A DNA stretch of 64,000 nt. It comes from Methanothermococcus okinawensis IH1 (GTDB lineage: Archaea > AGJL01 > Methanococci > Methanococcales > Methanococcaceae). Below the pieces are notes generated by a model. It made no database searches and was not told the DNA's origin. It saw nothing but the letters and a program-made list of their open reading frames with translations. This document shows positions 9,678 through 36,418 of the stretch, piece after piece. Each line of letters begins with the position of its first letter. Position 1 is the stretch's first letter. The position numbers were made by a program, and so were the translations under genes. The stretch lies in assembly GCF_000179575.2 (NCBI RefSeq), contig NC_015636.1, forward strand, positions 558,001-622,000, written 5' to 3'.

Positions 9678-10253
9678 ATGAAAGTGGGCATAACTAAGAT
9701 GTATGCAGATATTGCAAAAATAATTGGCATTGAAAACTACGATGTAGTCAATCCATACAACAACAAATTAACAGAATATTATGACTTACTTATTATTTCA
9801 AAGGGGTATAAAGAAAGGGTGAAAAAATTAAATCCTTATCCCATTTTTGAAATAAAATCCGCCACTTTTGATGATTTAATTGATAGCTTAAATGGACTAA
9901 AAAGATTGAATATCGGAGCTCCTAATAAAATAGATAAATATATTGAAACAATCCAAAAAAAGAAAAATGAGATTAAATCCCTAAAATACCCTAAAAATGT
10001 AAAAATCAACTCAAAAACGGAATTTATAAAAAAAATTATAGCTGATTTGGGGCTTAATATCTCAGATGATGGCATTTTAATAATTCCTGATTATATGGTT
10101 GATAAAAATATAACTATTACAACTATCGATGAAAATGGTAAAAAAACCTATATAATGCTAAATACTCATAGATATGATTTAAATACTCTTGAAAGAATTG
10201 AAGATAGGTATTTATCTATTATAAAGTCCATTAATAAATTATCGGTGGAATAA
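9678..10253 (+). CDS. Uncharacterised protein of the hmd cluster
   Basis: I do not recognise a named family. The 191-aa protein is soluble and Lys/Ile-rich, has no cysteine, and has no obvious cofactor motif. Its stop codon overlaps the first base of the next gene's ATG (TAATG), which implies translational coupling. It lies tightly between hcgA and hmdC/hcgG, so a role in FeGP cofactor assembly, perhaps as a scaffold or partner, is an inference from context only. Confidence 0.7.
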   Translation: MKVGITKMYADIAKIIGIENYDVVNPYNNKLTEYYDLLIISKGYKERVKKLNPYPIFEIKSATFDDLIDSLNGLKRLNIGAPNKIDKYIETIQKKKNEIKSLKYPKNVKINSKTEFIKKIIADLGLNISDDGILIIPDYMVDKNITITTIDENGKKTYIMLNTHRYDLNTLERIEDRYLSIIKSINKLSVE

Positions 10254-11788
10254 TGAAAGATATAATAAAAAATGCAGTAAATGATTTGGATATCTGTTTA
10301 GAACTGAGAAAGGATGTTATTGAAAAAATAACAAAAAATAAACTATCTGAAAAGGAAATAATAGAAATAGTGGATGCAGTGGATGATTTAAGTATTGAAG
10401 AAATACAAAAACTTGGAAGTAATTTTAGAAAATTCCCACTTGGATGCGATTTAGTGGAAATGGGCATAGGTCCATGTTCTTCATCATTGACTTTAACTGA
10501 GCTCATAGAGAACTGTATATTATCGGATTATATAGGATTTCCAATACATATATGTGCCTATGCACTTGGCGATATAGCGGAAAAAGAAGGCATGACTCCA
10601 TTGGAGGTTTTTAAAACAATTCATAATGCAATTGAAGTTCCAATTGATTTAGACCATTTTGGAAAATACGGAGCAATGAGATTTCCAAAAGAAATAACAC
10701 ATTGTATGGGGGATTGTTATTATAATGGACCCCCATTTAAAGGATGTCCAAAAGATAGAATACATAAACGACTTATTGACAAAGAAAAAAAATATTCCTA
10801 TGAATTCGATGACTGGATAAAATTATCCTCTACGGTATGCGTTAATGTTGTAAGAGAACAGGGGGGAGAGGAACATGCTGCACCACTGGATGAAATGGAA
10901 ATCGTTGCAGAAGCTGCTAAAAAGTATGGTAAGGGCTTGGAAGGTATATTTTATGTTGGGGATGGATATGATGATTTAATCACAGGTTTAAAATCTTGCA
11001 TAGATTTAGATGTGGATGTGTTTGTTGTTGAAGGAGCTCCGTTTAATAGGGCAAAGGATAGGTTAAAAGCATTTGCAAAGGCAGTTGCAGTATCCCGTAT
11101 ATTGGTAAAAGGTGGAGTGGTTGCTACCAATGGGGCATATGAGGATGAATGCAGAATAGGTCTTAGAAGCGGCTTAAATGTAATACTAAGTGGTTTTAGA
11201 GGAAATCATCACGGTTATATGTGTGGTTATTCGCCAAAAACTGCCAAAAGGGGAAATTTTGGGGTTCCAAGAGTTTTAAGAATTATCAAGGAAGAGATTA
11301 AAAATAATAAATTGGATACCCATATATTGAATAGAAATATATTAAAGGCAATAGCATTGGGAAGTAAATTTTTAAACTACAAAAATGAGAGCCTAATTTA
11401 TCCAAACAGTTTAGGAGGTCACTTTATTGGCGATGCTCATTGGGTAGCAGCTAAAAATAGCAATTTATATAACAATATAAATAATATATATAACAAAACC
11501 ATCGATGATATAGACAATTGCAGTAAATTAGGTCTTTTAGGGGGTAGATACATAGCATGGGGAATAGCAAAGGCATTAAAACCAGATGAGGTATATATAA
11601 GCGATGCCAATAAATGGGTGGAAAAAGCCACTGTAAAGATATTGAATGATGCTAAAATAAATGCCTATGGATGCAATGGAAATGATAAAAAAGTAATGGA
11701 AAATGCCGATAAATCGATTATTACTTCATTTATTCCTGAGATAGTTTTAAGAATAAAAAATAAAATTGATGCAGAAAGTTTAATTTAA
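10253..11788 (+). CDS. hcgG: HmdC / HcgG-like FeGP cofactor biosynthesis protein
   Basis: This is a 511-aa protein of the Hmd co-occurring family, which in related methanogens is encoded with hmd and hcgA and is needed for FeGP cofactor synthesis. Conserved blocks include PLGCDLVEMGIGPCSSSLT, HCMGDCYYNGPPFKGCP with several closely spaced cysteines, and NVILSGFRGNHHGYMCGY. The C-terminal part (about 330-511) contains LGGRYIAWGIAKAL and looks like a fibrillarin-type fold. A short Asn/Ile-rich insert is at about 405-425. It starts one base inside the upstream gene's stop. The biochemical step is not settled. Confidence 0.85.
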   Translation: MKDIIKNAVNDLDICLELRKDVIEKITKNKLSEKEIIEIVDAVDDLSIEEIQKLGSNFRKFPLGCDLVEMGIGPCSSSLTLTELIENCILSDYIGFPIHICAYALGDIAEKEGMTPLEVFKTIHNAIEVPIDLDHFGKYGAMRFPKEITHCMGDCYYNGPPFKGCPKDRIHKRLIDKEKKYSYEFDDWIKLSSTVCVNVVREQGGEEHAAPLDEMEIVAEAAKKYGKGLEGIFYVGDGYDDLITGLKSCIDLDVDVFVVEGAPFNRAKDRLKAFAKAVAVSRILVKGGVVATNGAYEDECRIGLRSGLNVILSGFRGNHHGYMCGYSPKTAKRGNFGVPRVLRIIKEEIKNNKLDTHILNRNILKAIALGSKFLNYKNESLIYPNSLGGHFIGDAHWVAAKNSNLYNNINNIYNKTIDDIDNCSKLGLLGGRYIAWGIAKALKPDEVYISDANKWVEKATVKILNDAKINAYGCNGNDKKVMENADKSIITSFIPEIVLRIKNKIDAESLI

Positions 11789-11790
11789 AA

Positions 11791-11859
11791 AACATCCTCA
11801 GCTACCCCAGGTCTCATCTTATACAGCATCAGCAGGGATGACTCTCATCATCGGATGTT
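11791..11859 (-). ncRNA. Box C/D guide sRNA
   Basis: Read on the minus strand, this 69-nt element has a C box (ATGATGA) near its 5' end, 12 nt of guide, a D' box (CTGA), a C' box (AAGATGA, one change from RUGAUGA), 12 nt of guide, and a D box (CTGA). A perfect 7-bp terminal stem (AACATCC with GGATGTT) closes it. Two 12-nt guide spacings are the canonical symmetric archaeal layout. By the D+5 rule the guides would target CAGGGATGACTC and CTACCCCAGGTC, methylating the fifth base of each; the target RNAs are not in this window. An RNA ligase gene ends 97 bp upstream on the same strand. Confidence 0.9.
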
Positions 11860-11883
11860 ATTTTTTTATTTATTTCTTTTTTG

Positions 11884-11895
11884 TTTTTATAATTT
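11884..11895 (-). promoter_or_regulatory. Candidate promoter of the C/D sRNA
   Basis: A TATA-like element (ATTATAAAAA, minus strand) lies about 27 bp before the 5' end of the sRNA at 11859, the expected archaeal spacing. The surrounding DNA is nearly all A/T, so chance matches are common. Read-through from the RNA ligase gene is the alternative source of the sRNA. Confidence 0.4.
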
Positions 11896-11956
11896 TTTTT
11901 CTTTTTTTATTTATTTCATATTAGTTTTTATTTATTATTATTTTAATTAAATTTAT

Positions 11957-13147
11957 TTACCAAAGATTTCCATCCAAATGGCTTTTTATTTTGTCGTTGG
12001 TTGAATTATATATTCTTCCTATTTTAACCTTATGCATCCCATTTTCAAATTTTTGATTTTCCTTTACAACAAATGCTATATGAAGTTTTTTTAGATAATC
12101 CAAAAATTCATTTAAATCCTCTTCACTATCCAAATATATTTCAAAATCCTCTGTAATCAACTCTCCTTTTGAAATATTTTTTATACTATTTACCATTGGA
12201 TAAAGTATTGATTTTCCTATGTTTTTTGCCCTTTTTTCCATTTCTTTTTCATCCTCGTTAAATTCAAACGATTGATAACCTTCCCTCACAAGTCGGCTAA
12301 ACATAAAATCAATACCTAAGTCATACATATACCTAAATGCCACGGATAAATCGTTACATTGGGTATAATGAGTTGTGTATTTTATGGGGTTTATAATCAT
12401 GTCAGGGTCTTTTAAAACTACTCCTTCCCTTTTTTTATCATTCAAAGTCAGTATTATTTTTTTTATATGTTCAATATCTTCTTTATTAAATATACCAATA
12501 GGTTTCACATATGGGAGCTCATATTTTTGTAGGAGCTCCTCCTTTTCACTTATTGAAAGTGGTTTATTTGTTTCCCTATATCTTACATCAAATATATAAA
12601 ATCCTAAATTCTCAATAATTTTAGTTTTTTTATTATTATTTTTATCACTTTTAATTAATATATTATTTACTTCTGGATAATAATGGGGAACATAGGGATT
12701 ATTTAACCCTATCATCTCACCGCAAAGCATTAAATTAGGATAATCATCCAATATATTAACATTTAAAAATTTTAACGCCTTTTTTGTAGTAAATGGGCAA
12801 ATTCGACCTCCTCTCGTAATCGCCATAACTTTATTGTCAATTTTTGTTATTCTAACATTGTATCCATCTAATTTTTCTTCTACAACGATTTTATTAATAA
12901 AATAATTTTTTAATGTAGGATAAAGCATCATAGCACGCCTTATTTTTGGATATCCCATTACAATATCCATATTATTATTTAAAAATAAAACAGTCCCCCT
13001 TTCAATATGTCTTAGTTTCTTTTTAAATAATAGATATTTTTTGTTATGATACATATCAAAAGAAATTATTTTTCTTTCAAATGCCTTTTTTATATCCACT
13101 TCATCCAACTTTAACCTTTCCGAGACTTTTAAAATATCAATATCCAT
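11957..13147 (-). CDS. ATP-dependent RNA ligase, archaeal Rnl3 family
   Basis: The nucleotidyltransferase lysine motif EEKLDGYNVR (Lys92 from my start) and later motifs (GEMIG; REGVVLKDP with its lysine) identify a covalent nucleotidyltransferase, and the overall layout matches the archaeal Rnl3 RNA ligases. Characterised members join or circularise RNA, including box C/D sRNAs. The length (396 aa) fits. A GTG at 13156 also opens the frame, but it lies in the GTGAT ribosome-binding sequence of the ATG at 13147, so I prefer 13147. A short Asn/Lys-rich loop lies near residues 170-180. Confidence 0.88.
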   Translation of the reverse strand: MDIDILKVSERLKLDEVDIKKAFERKIISFDMYHNKKYLLFKKKLRHIERGTVLFLNNNMDIVMGYPKIRRAMMLYPTLKNYFINKIVVEEKLDGYNVRITKIDNKVMAITRGGRICPFTTKKALKFLNVNILDDYPNLMLCGEMIGLNNPYVPHYYPEVNNILIKSDKNNNKKTKIIENLGFYIFDVRYRETNKPLSISEKEELLQKYELPYVKPIGIFNKEDIEHIKKIILTLNDKKREGVVLKDPDMIINPIKYTTHYTQCNDLSVAFRYMYDLGIDFMFSRLVREGYQSFEFNEDEKEMEKRAKNIGKSILYPMVNSIKNISKGELITEDFEIYLDSEEDLNEFLDYLKKLHIAFVVKENQKFENGMHKVKIGRIYNSTNDKIKSHLDGNLW

Positions 13148-13219
13148 AAAAATCACAATAATATATTTTATAATATAACATATTATGGCCTATCTTTCTC
13201 CATATATCTTTATACTGTT

Positions 13220-35622: not shown

Positions 35623-35739
35623 ATTTGCCCATCATTTATTTTATTACTTAATTTTTCCTTTCTTAATATATATTATTAATAGAATTTAAATTTAATTTAA
35701 ATATATTTAAATATATAAATTAATATTTATAAAACAAAA

Positions 35740-35814
35740 CGCCCTGGCCGGGATTTGAACCCGAGTCACAGGAGTGACAGTCCTGTATGATAGGCCGAGC
35801 TACACCACCAGGGC
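35740..35814 (-). tRNA. tRNA-Asp (GTC), copy 1
   Basis: The acceptor GCCCTGG pairs with CCAGGGC, the anticodon loop CTGTCAC gives anticodon GTC, and the discriminator is G73 as expected for Asp. It is identical to the copy at 36105-36179 and is the last gene of the stable-RNA operon. CCA is not encoded. Confidence 0.96.
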
Positions 35815-35838
35815 AAATGTATTAAATATATAAAAAAA

Positions 35839-35955
35839 GGCTGACAGCGTCATCCTGTTCCCACCGAAAGGCAGTACTTAGGATATCGCTGGAGGGCTTA
35901 ATTTCCGAGATCGGAACGGGATCGGATGTGGCACCTCCGCTATGACCGTCATGCC
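35839..35955 (-). rRNA. rrf: 5S rRNA, copy 1
   Basis: The 117-nt sequence reads GGCATGACGGTCATAGCGG at its 5' end and closes with GCTGTCAGCC, pairing to helix I. The internal block CCGATCCCGTTCCGATCTCGG is typical of 5S rRNA loops B/C. It lies between tRNA genes, not next to 16S or 23S rRNA, and is identical to the copy at 36203-36319. Confidence 0.95.
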
Positions 35956-35980
35956 AAAAAATGCCAATTAAAGCTTAAAG

Positions 35981-36054
35981 CGGGCCCGAAGGGATTCGAA
36001 CCCTCGACCGCCTGGTTAAAAGCCAGGCGCTCTACCAGACTAAGCTACGGGCCC
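35981..36054 (-). tRNA. tRNA-Lys (TTT), copy 1
   Basis: The acceptor GGGCCCG pairs with CGGGCCC, the anticodon loop CTTTTAA gives anticodon TTT, the discriminator is G73, and the T-loop is GTTCGAATC. It is identical to the copy at 36345-36418. Confidence 0.96.
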
Positions 36055-36104
36055 AAAATTCTTAAACTCCCATTATTGTATTTTATTGATAATATATTAT
36101 TAAA

Positions 36105-36179
36105 CGCCCTGGCCGGGATTTGAACCCGAGTCACAGGAGTGACAGTCCTGTATGATAGGCCGAGCTACACCACCAGGGC
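36105..36179 (-). tRNA. tRNA-Asp (GTC), copy 2
   Basis: Identical in sequence to the copy at 35740-35814: anticodon GTC, G73. It is the sixth gene from the operon promoter. Confidence 0.96.
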
Positions 36180-36202
36180 AAATGTATTAAATATATAAAA
36201 AA

Positions 36203-36319
36203 GGCTGACAGCGTCATCCTGTTCCCACCGAAAGGCAGTACTTAGGATATCGCTGGAGGGCTTAATTTCCGAGATCGGAACGGGATCGGATGTGGCACCT
36301 CCGCTATGACCGTCATGCC
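36203..36319 (-). rRNA. rrf: 5S rRNA, copy 2
   Basis: Identical to the copy at 35839-35955. It lies between tRNA-Lys and tRNA-Asp of the upstream duplicate unit. No 16S or 23S rRNA gene is in the window. Confidence 0.95.
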
Positions 36320-36344
36320 AAAAAATGCCAATTAAAGCTTAAAG

Positions 36345-36418
36345 CGGGCCCGAAGGGATTCGAACCCTCGACCGCCTGGTTAAAAGCCAGGCGCTCTACC
36401 AGACTAAGCTACGGGCCC
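36345..36418 (-). tRNA. tRNA-Lys (TTT), copy 2
   Basis: Identical to the copy at 35981-36054, with anticodon TTT. It follows tRNA-Tyr by 10 bp. Confidence 0.96.

Follow-up and report, generated by a model that had tools for sequence, protein, structure and literature searches.

Archaeal double-guide box C/D sRNAs, as exemplified by the sR families, contain boxes C, D', C' and D, 12-nt guides and a terminal stem; two guides can address close sites of one rRNA, and the gene can lie at the 3' end of a protein gene (PMC7994747). C/D sRNA genes are often found in or next to the 3' ends of other genes, where a promoter of their own is unneeded, and the majority of C/D sRNAs in archaea are processed out of longer precursors (PMC7994747). 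T. kodakarensis forms no C/D sRNA circles once its Rnl3 ligase is deleted, and recombinant MthRnl circularises C/D sRNAs only with an intact terminal stem (PMC9014305). Rnl3-type ligases such as Pab1020, MthRnl and TkoRnl (TK1545) match TIGR01209 over their full length and have the Lig_C region as well as KxDG and other motifs. To our knowledge, the role of Rnl3 outside Thermococcales has been little studied.

The locus described here lies in a 64-kb stretch (hereafter the window; G000:C2:558001-622000) of the 1.66-Mb chromosome of the heat-loving methanogen M. okinawensis. Its sRNA shares with the sR families the boxes, the guide length, the terminal stem, the two close predicted sites in one rRNA and the position at a protein-gene 3' end. 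However, it is lineage-specific, with no Rfam family matching it at the gathering threshold, and its neighbour happens to be an RNA ligase. This ligase has the hallmarks of the Rnl3 type, but it is known from its sequence, whereas the T. kodakarensis enzyme acts on several C/D sRNAs. Like other C/D genes at the 3' ends of open reading frames (Tripp et al., 2017, as cited in PMC7994747), the sRNA gene follows a stop codon on the same strand and would probably be expressed from a longer precursor. The gap is nevertheless longer than between the close neighbours described previously (<25 nt; PMC7994747), although it shrinks to about 17 nt in one related genome (G023).

The sRNA gene and the neighbouring ligase gene

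Judged by sequence, motif layout and conservation, the 69-nt segment at 11791..11859 on the minus strand, with its 5' end at 11859, is a box C/D guide sRNA gene. Read from 11859 to 11791, this strand gives AACATCC-G-ATGATGA-GAGTCATCCCTG-CTGA-TGCTGTAT-AAGATGA-GACCTGGGGTAG-CTGA-GGATGTT, which corresponds to a stem arm, box C, a 12-nt guide, box D', an 8-nt spacer, box C', another 12-nt guide, box D and the second stem arm. The sequence features by which archaeal box C/D sRNAs are recognised are present: boxes C and D near the ends, C' and D' inside, a terminal stem, and guides complementary to rRNA. As claimed in the preliminary description, the two arms (AACATCC at 11853..11859 and GGATGTT at 11791..11797, minus strand) form a perfect 7-bp stem. 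Both sides of the stem have changed in five of the seven pairs among 11 aligned copies, and 94.7% of the alignment cells pair, whereas sliding the partner gives no more than 55%. The boxes hardly vary among these copies. In this alignment (A1, 11 genomes), the TGATGA of box C (ATGATGA, 11845..11851), box D' (CTGA, 11829..11832) and box D (CTGA, 11798..11801), all on the minus strand, do not vary. Box C' (AAGATGA, 11814..11820, minus strand) is one change away from RTGATGA and reads TGATGA or TGAGGA in other genomes.

A strict C/D pattern found six matches in the 1.68-Mb genome, as opposed to none for the reversed control pattern. One of the six, at G000:C2:708305-708355, is without a terminal stem and does not resemble a C/D sRNA. 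The covariance model R1 matches the sRNA at 5e-21, the sRNA itself being among the sequences of R1. A plain DNA search over 36 genomes of the order located the gene in 17 of them, all from one family, namely M. okinawensis and 16 other Methanococcaceae, in which it is conserved. The search for a Methanocaldococcus orthologue identified none, the best model matches inspected there carrying other guides, and a literature search for M. jannaschii sRNA lists returned nothing usable.

The gene upstream (11957..13147, minus strand; likely ATG start at 13147, GTG at 13156 in the list of open reading frames) encodes an Rnl3-type (TIGR01209) ATP-dependent RNA ligase. The full-length TIGR01209 match scores 438.6 bits against a curated cut-off of 136.9, and the Pfam matches are Lig_C (the Pab1020 C-terminal region, 5.5e-42) and RNA_ligase. 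Comparison with MthRnl (5d1o) gave E=5.7e-86, with the motifs EEKLDGYN, GEMIG, FDVR, REGVVLKDP and IKYT aligned. The ligase stop and the sRNA are separated by an A-rich gap of exactly 97 nt (11860..11956, minus strand), in which the longest T run is 3 and a weak TATA-like TTATAAAA occurs. The sequence and these matches confirm what was described earlier, a C/D sRNA that begins 97 nt beyond the ligase stop codon, with both genes on one strand and the ligase of the Rnl3 type.

On the other side, hmdC/hcgG (FeGP cofactor biosynthesis; 10253..11788, plus strand) converges on the sRNA, its stop codon lying 2 nt from the sRNA end. A U6 tract at the sRNA 3' end (11787..11792, minus strand), a probable terminator, overlaps this stop codon on the opposite strand. 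The hmdC/hcgG product carries the Pfam name Fibrillarin_2, yet it belongs to FeGP cofactor synthesis and is not the C/D methyltransferase.

Predicted guide targets in 23S rRNA

Both guides match the organism's own 23S rRNA. The D' guide GAGTCATCCCTG (11833..11844, minus strand) forms 10 Watson-Crick pairs with 23S rRNA 2492-2501, and the D guide GACCTGGGGTAG (11802..11813, minus strand) forms nine Watson-Crick pairs and one G-U pair with 2509-2518. With target nucleotides assigned by the N+5 rule, the predicted 2'-O-methylation sites are G2496 and C2513, only 17 nt apart. The sRNA would thus direct a C/D RNP to methylate G2496 through its D' guide and C2513 through its D guide.

Neither match is extreme singly: when each guide was compared with shuffles of its own letters, 65 of 100 and 37 of 100 shuffles, respectively, matched equally well somewhere in rRNA, and the D guide pairing with its one G-U is unexceptional by itself. 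The assignment of the targets therefore rests on the joint test, in which none of 3000 shuffled guide pairs matched 23S rRNA within 30 nt of each other. We take G2496 and C2513 to correspond approximately to E. coli 2424 and 2441, counted in our own numbering from the conserved GGGGAUAACAG motif; the two sites adjoin the peptidyl-transferase loop. With this sRNA, the Methanococcaceae gain a well-supported family of C/D guides whose predicted targets in 23S rRNA lie beside that loop.

The D' guide of the Methanococcus-type genomes is altered and yet still matches the same target through an 11-nt pairing, taking the 23S rRNA of M. okinawensis as the reference. The Methanococcus-type sRNAs (L048, L050, L051 and L052) also carry a long insertion that separates D' from C', and their D guide differs, with no good match in M. 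okinawensis rRNA. Within M. okinawensis, two further C/D sRNAs match the same 35-nt stretch of 23S rRNA, one perfectly at 2514-2525 and the other with one mismatch at 2506-2517. The guides of the three sRNAs (G000:C2:402650, 569791 and 1621000) overlap within 2491-2525 (L003), next to the peptidyl-transferase loop, and their bindings would be mutually exclusive.

Order of the two genes across genomes

The preliminary description proposed that synteny of ligase and sRNA be examined in other Methanococcales. This comparison gave a divided answer. Among the 16 genomes with both genes, the sRNA is directly behind the ligase in four, about 1 kb behind it in two and apart from it in ten. Adjacency is thus not kept wherever both genes are present, as it would be in a conserved gene unit. 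The four adjacent cases span two genera: besides M. okinawensis itself, they are G029 (a Methanothermococcus sp. MAG), G033 (another genus, about 89 nt) and G023. The sRNA is about 1 kb behind the ligase in two Methanococcus-type genomes, G016 and G018.

The ten genomes in which the genes are apart (G015, G017, G024-G028, G032, G034 and G035) show various other neighbours. In G015 and G017, the sRNA is 27-36 kb from the ligase, beside or near a radical-SAM gene that also flanks it in G016 and G018. A leuD/hacB-like gene precedes the sRNA in G024, G025, G028 and G032, and in G034 and G035 the sRNA is followed by an EPSP synthase gene. Finally, sRNA and ligase are found on different contigs in G026 and G027.

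In both the adjacent and the Methanococcus-type genomes, the PolB, amidohydrolase and PHP genes form a stable neighbourhood of the ligase, so the adjacency looks like part of an inherited gene order. In the ligase tree, the group's deepest split has adjacent genomes on either side, which fits a single origin followed by losses; clustering of the adjacent genomes was not significant when labels were shuffled (138/500). The adjacency outlasted a deep split, across which the ligases are about 30% diverged, and its persistence might slightly exceed what a purely passive view predicts. On the whole, these patterns make the ligase-sRNA order look like an old gene order in decay rather than a maintained unit. 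It would have come from an ancestor of the Methanothermococcus-type and Methanococcus-type genomes and would have been broken up several times since.

When about 60 ligase loci (other Methanococcales, Thermococcaceae-like genomes and further archaea) were scanned for the motifs, no C/D sRNA appeared on the 3' side of the ligase, and two C/D candidates lay upstream of it. In one Thermococcaceae-like genome (G189, L139 1371-1421), the open reading frame of the Rnl3 ligase is preceded, at 35 nt and on the same strand, by a probable C/D sRNA, which the other examined ligase loci of that family lack. Three Methanococcus-type genomes (G019, G020 and G021) lack both the Rnl3 ligase and the sRNA and keep the PHP and radical-SAM neighbours.

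Transcription, circularisation and the meaning of the neighbourhood

We consider it very probable, taking all parts of the reading together, that the sRNA is an ordinary double-guide C/D sRNA, probably expressed by read-through from the ligase gene, whose place behind this gene is a remnant of a decayed gene order without regulatory meaning. As for transcription, U4 tracts mark terminators in M. maripaludis (PMC8716108). On the ligase strand, T runs in the gap do not exceed 3 in any of the four adjacent genomes, so that no U4 tract precedes the sRNA, while U6-U7 tracts directly follow it in most relatives. The lack of such a tract before the sRNA and its presence afterwards make read-through from the ligase gene plausible. 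Because a T run of at least 4 is found within 97 nt at 14 of the 18 comparable gene ends in the 64-kb window, the missing tract is suggestive rather than strong. The co-transcription proposed earlier stays plausible. The sRNA would then probably form the 3' tail of the transcript of the ligase operon, ended by the U tract, and nucleases would trim the precursor around the bound C/D proteins.

Alternatively, the sRNA might form an independent unit, transcribed apart from the ligase from its own promoter in the 97-nt gap. The TATA-like TTATAAAA precedes the sRNA by about 30 nt, a possible promoter distance, and TATA-rich regions precede the sRNA in Methanotorris-like and Methanococcus-type relatives as well as several other C/D sRNAs of M. 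okinawensis. However, such a match is expected by chance in a gap of 95% A+T, and the tRNA genes in the window show a fuller TTTATATA. Furthermore, the ligase-sRNA gap of G023 is too short to hold a promoter, unless it lay within the ligase gene. We accordingly regard a separate promoter as rather unlikely, though worth keeping in mind, and read-through as likelier on the sequence signals at hand.

With its 7-bp stem, the sRNA has what MthRnl-type circularisation calls for, and the suggestion that the stem suits ligation holds to this extent. The argument applies to C/D sRNAs at large and gives this one no special place: on inspection, terminal stems are also seen in the four remaining C/D sRNAs of the same genome, and in three of these the stem also forms when the bare RNA is folded. 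Terminal stems being common to them, the sRNA is not marked as a privileged ligase substrate. It is probably a substrate of the ligase on the same footing as any C/D sRNA. The sRNA would probably be circularised in part, like other C/D sRNAs with terminal stems. If so, it could conveniently serve as a native substrate in tests of a methanogen Rnl3.

The idea of a special or feedback relation between the two genes, in which the 3' UTR of the ligase mRNA carries the enzyme's own substrate and the levels of ligase and circular sRNA control one another, for instance through the ligase or L7Ae binding the copy of the sRNA in the 3' UTR, draws on several of the same observations. Adjacency in four genomes of two genera, the lack of a terminator signal between the genes, the circularisation of stem-bearing C/D sRNAs by Rnl3 (PMC9014305) and the joint absence of both genes from three Methanococcus-type genomes could all be read in its favour. 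Joint absence can, however, be explained by one deletion of linked genes. The genes are apart, beside other neighbours, in ten of the 16 genomes that have both; no C/D sRNA follows the ligase in the tested loci of Methanocaldococcus, Thermococcaceae-like and other archaea; and the terminal stem is no peculiarity of this sRNA. We therefore depart from the preliminary description on this point and hold such coupling to be very improbable. The narrower version, in which release and circularisation of the sRNA tune ligase expression where the genes have stayed together, the 3' end of the ligase transcript serving as the enzyme's own substrate, is in our view even less probable. An inherited and repeatedly broken gene order implies that the neighbourhood most likely has no regulatory meaning, and the locus illustrates how an inviting arrangement of genes can be no more than an old order in decay.

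The convergent gene offers another possibility, namely that the sRNA is antisense to the hmdC 3' UTR and affects hmdC mRNA. The sRNA end is only 2 nt from the hmdC stop codon. The long T tracts of the hmdC strand lie beyond the sRNA, so the 3' UTR of hmdC mRNA would contain the sRNA complement, and hmdC converges on the sRNA in G025, G028 and G032 too, at about 0.4-1.2 kb. On the other hand, hmdC is not beside the sRNA in G023, G033, the Methanococcus-type or the Methanotorris-like genomes, and the conserved guides fit rRNA. To an antisense role at hmdC we give the least credence of all, and we retain the ordinary rRNA guide with a decayed gene order as the preferred reading.

Elsewhere in the window (35739-36418), two tandem copies of a tRNA-Lys, 5S rRNA and tRNA-Asp cassette are found at a distance from the 16S/23S operons (near C2:713772 and C2:762570).
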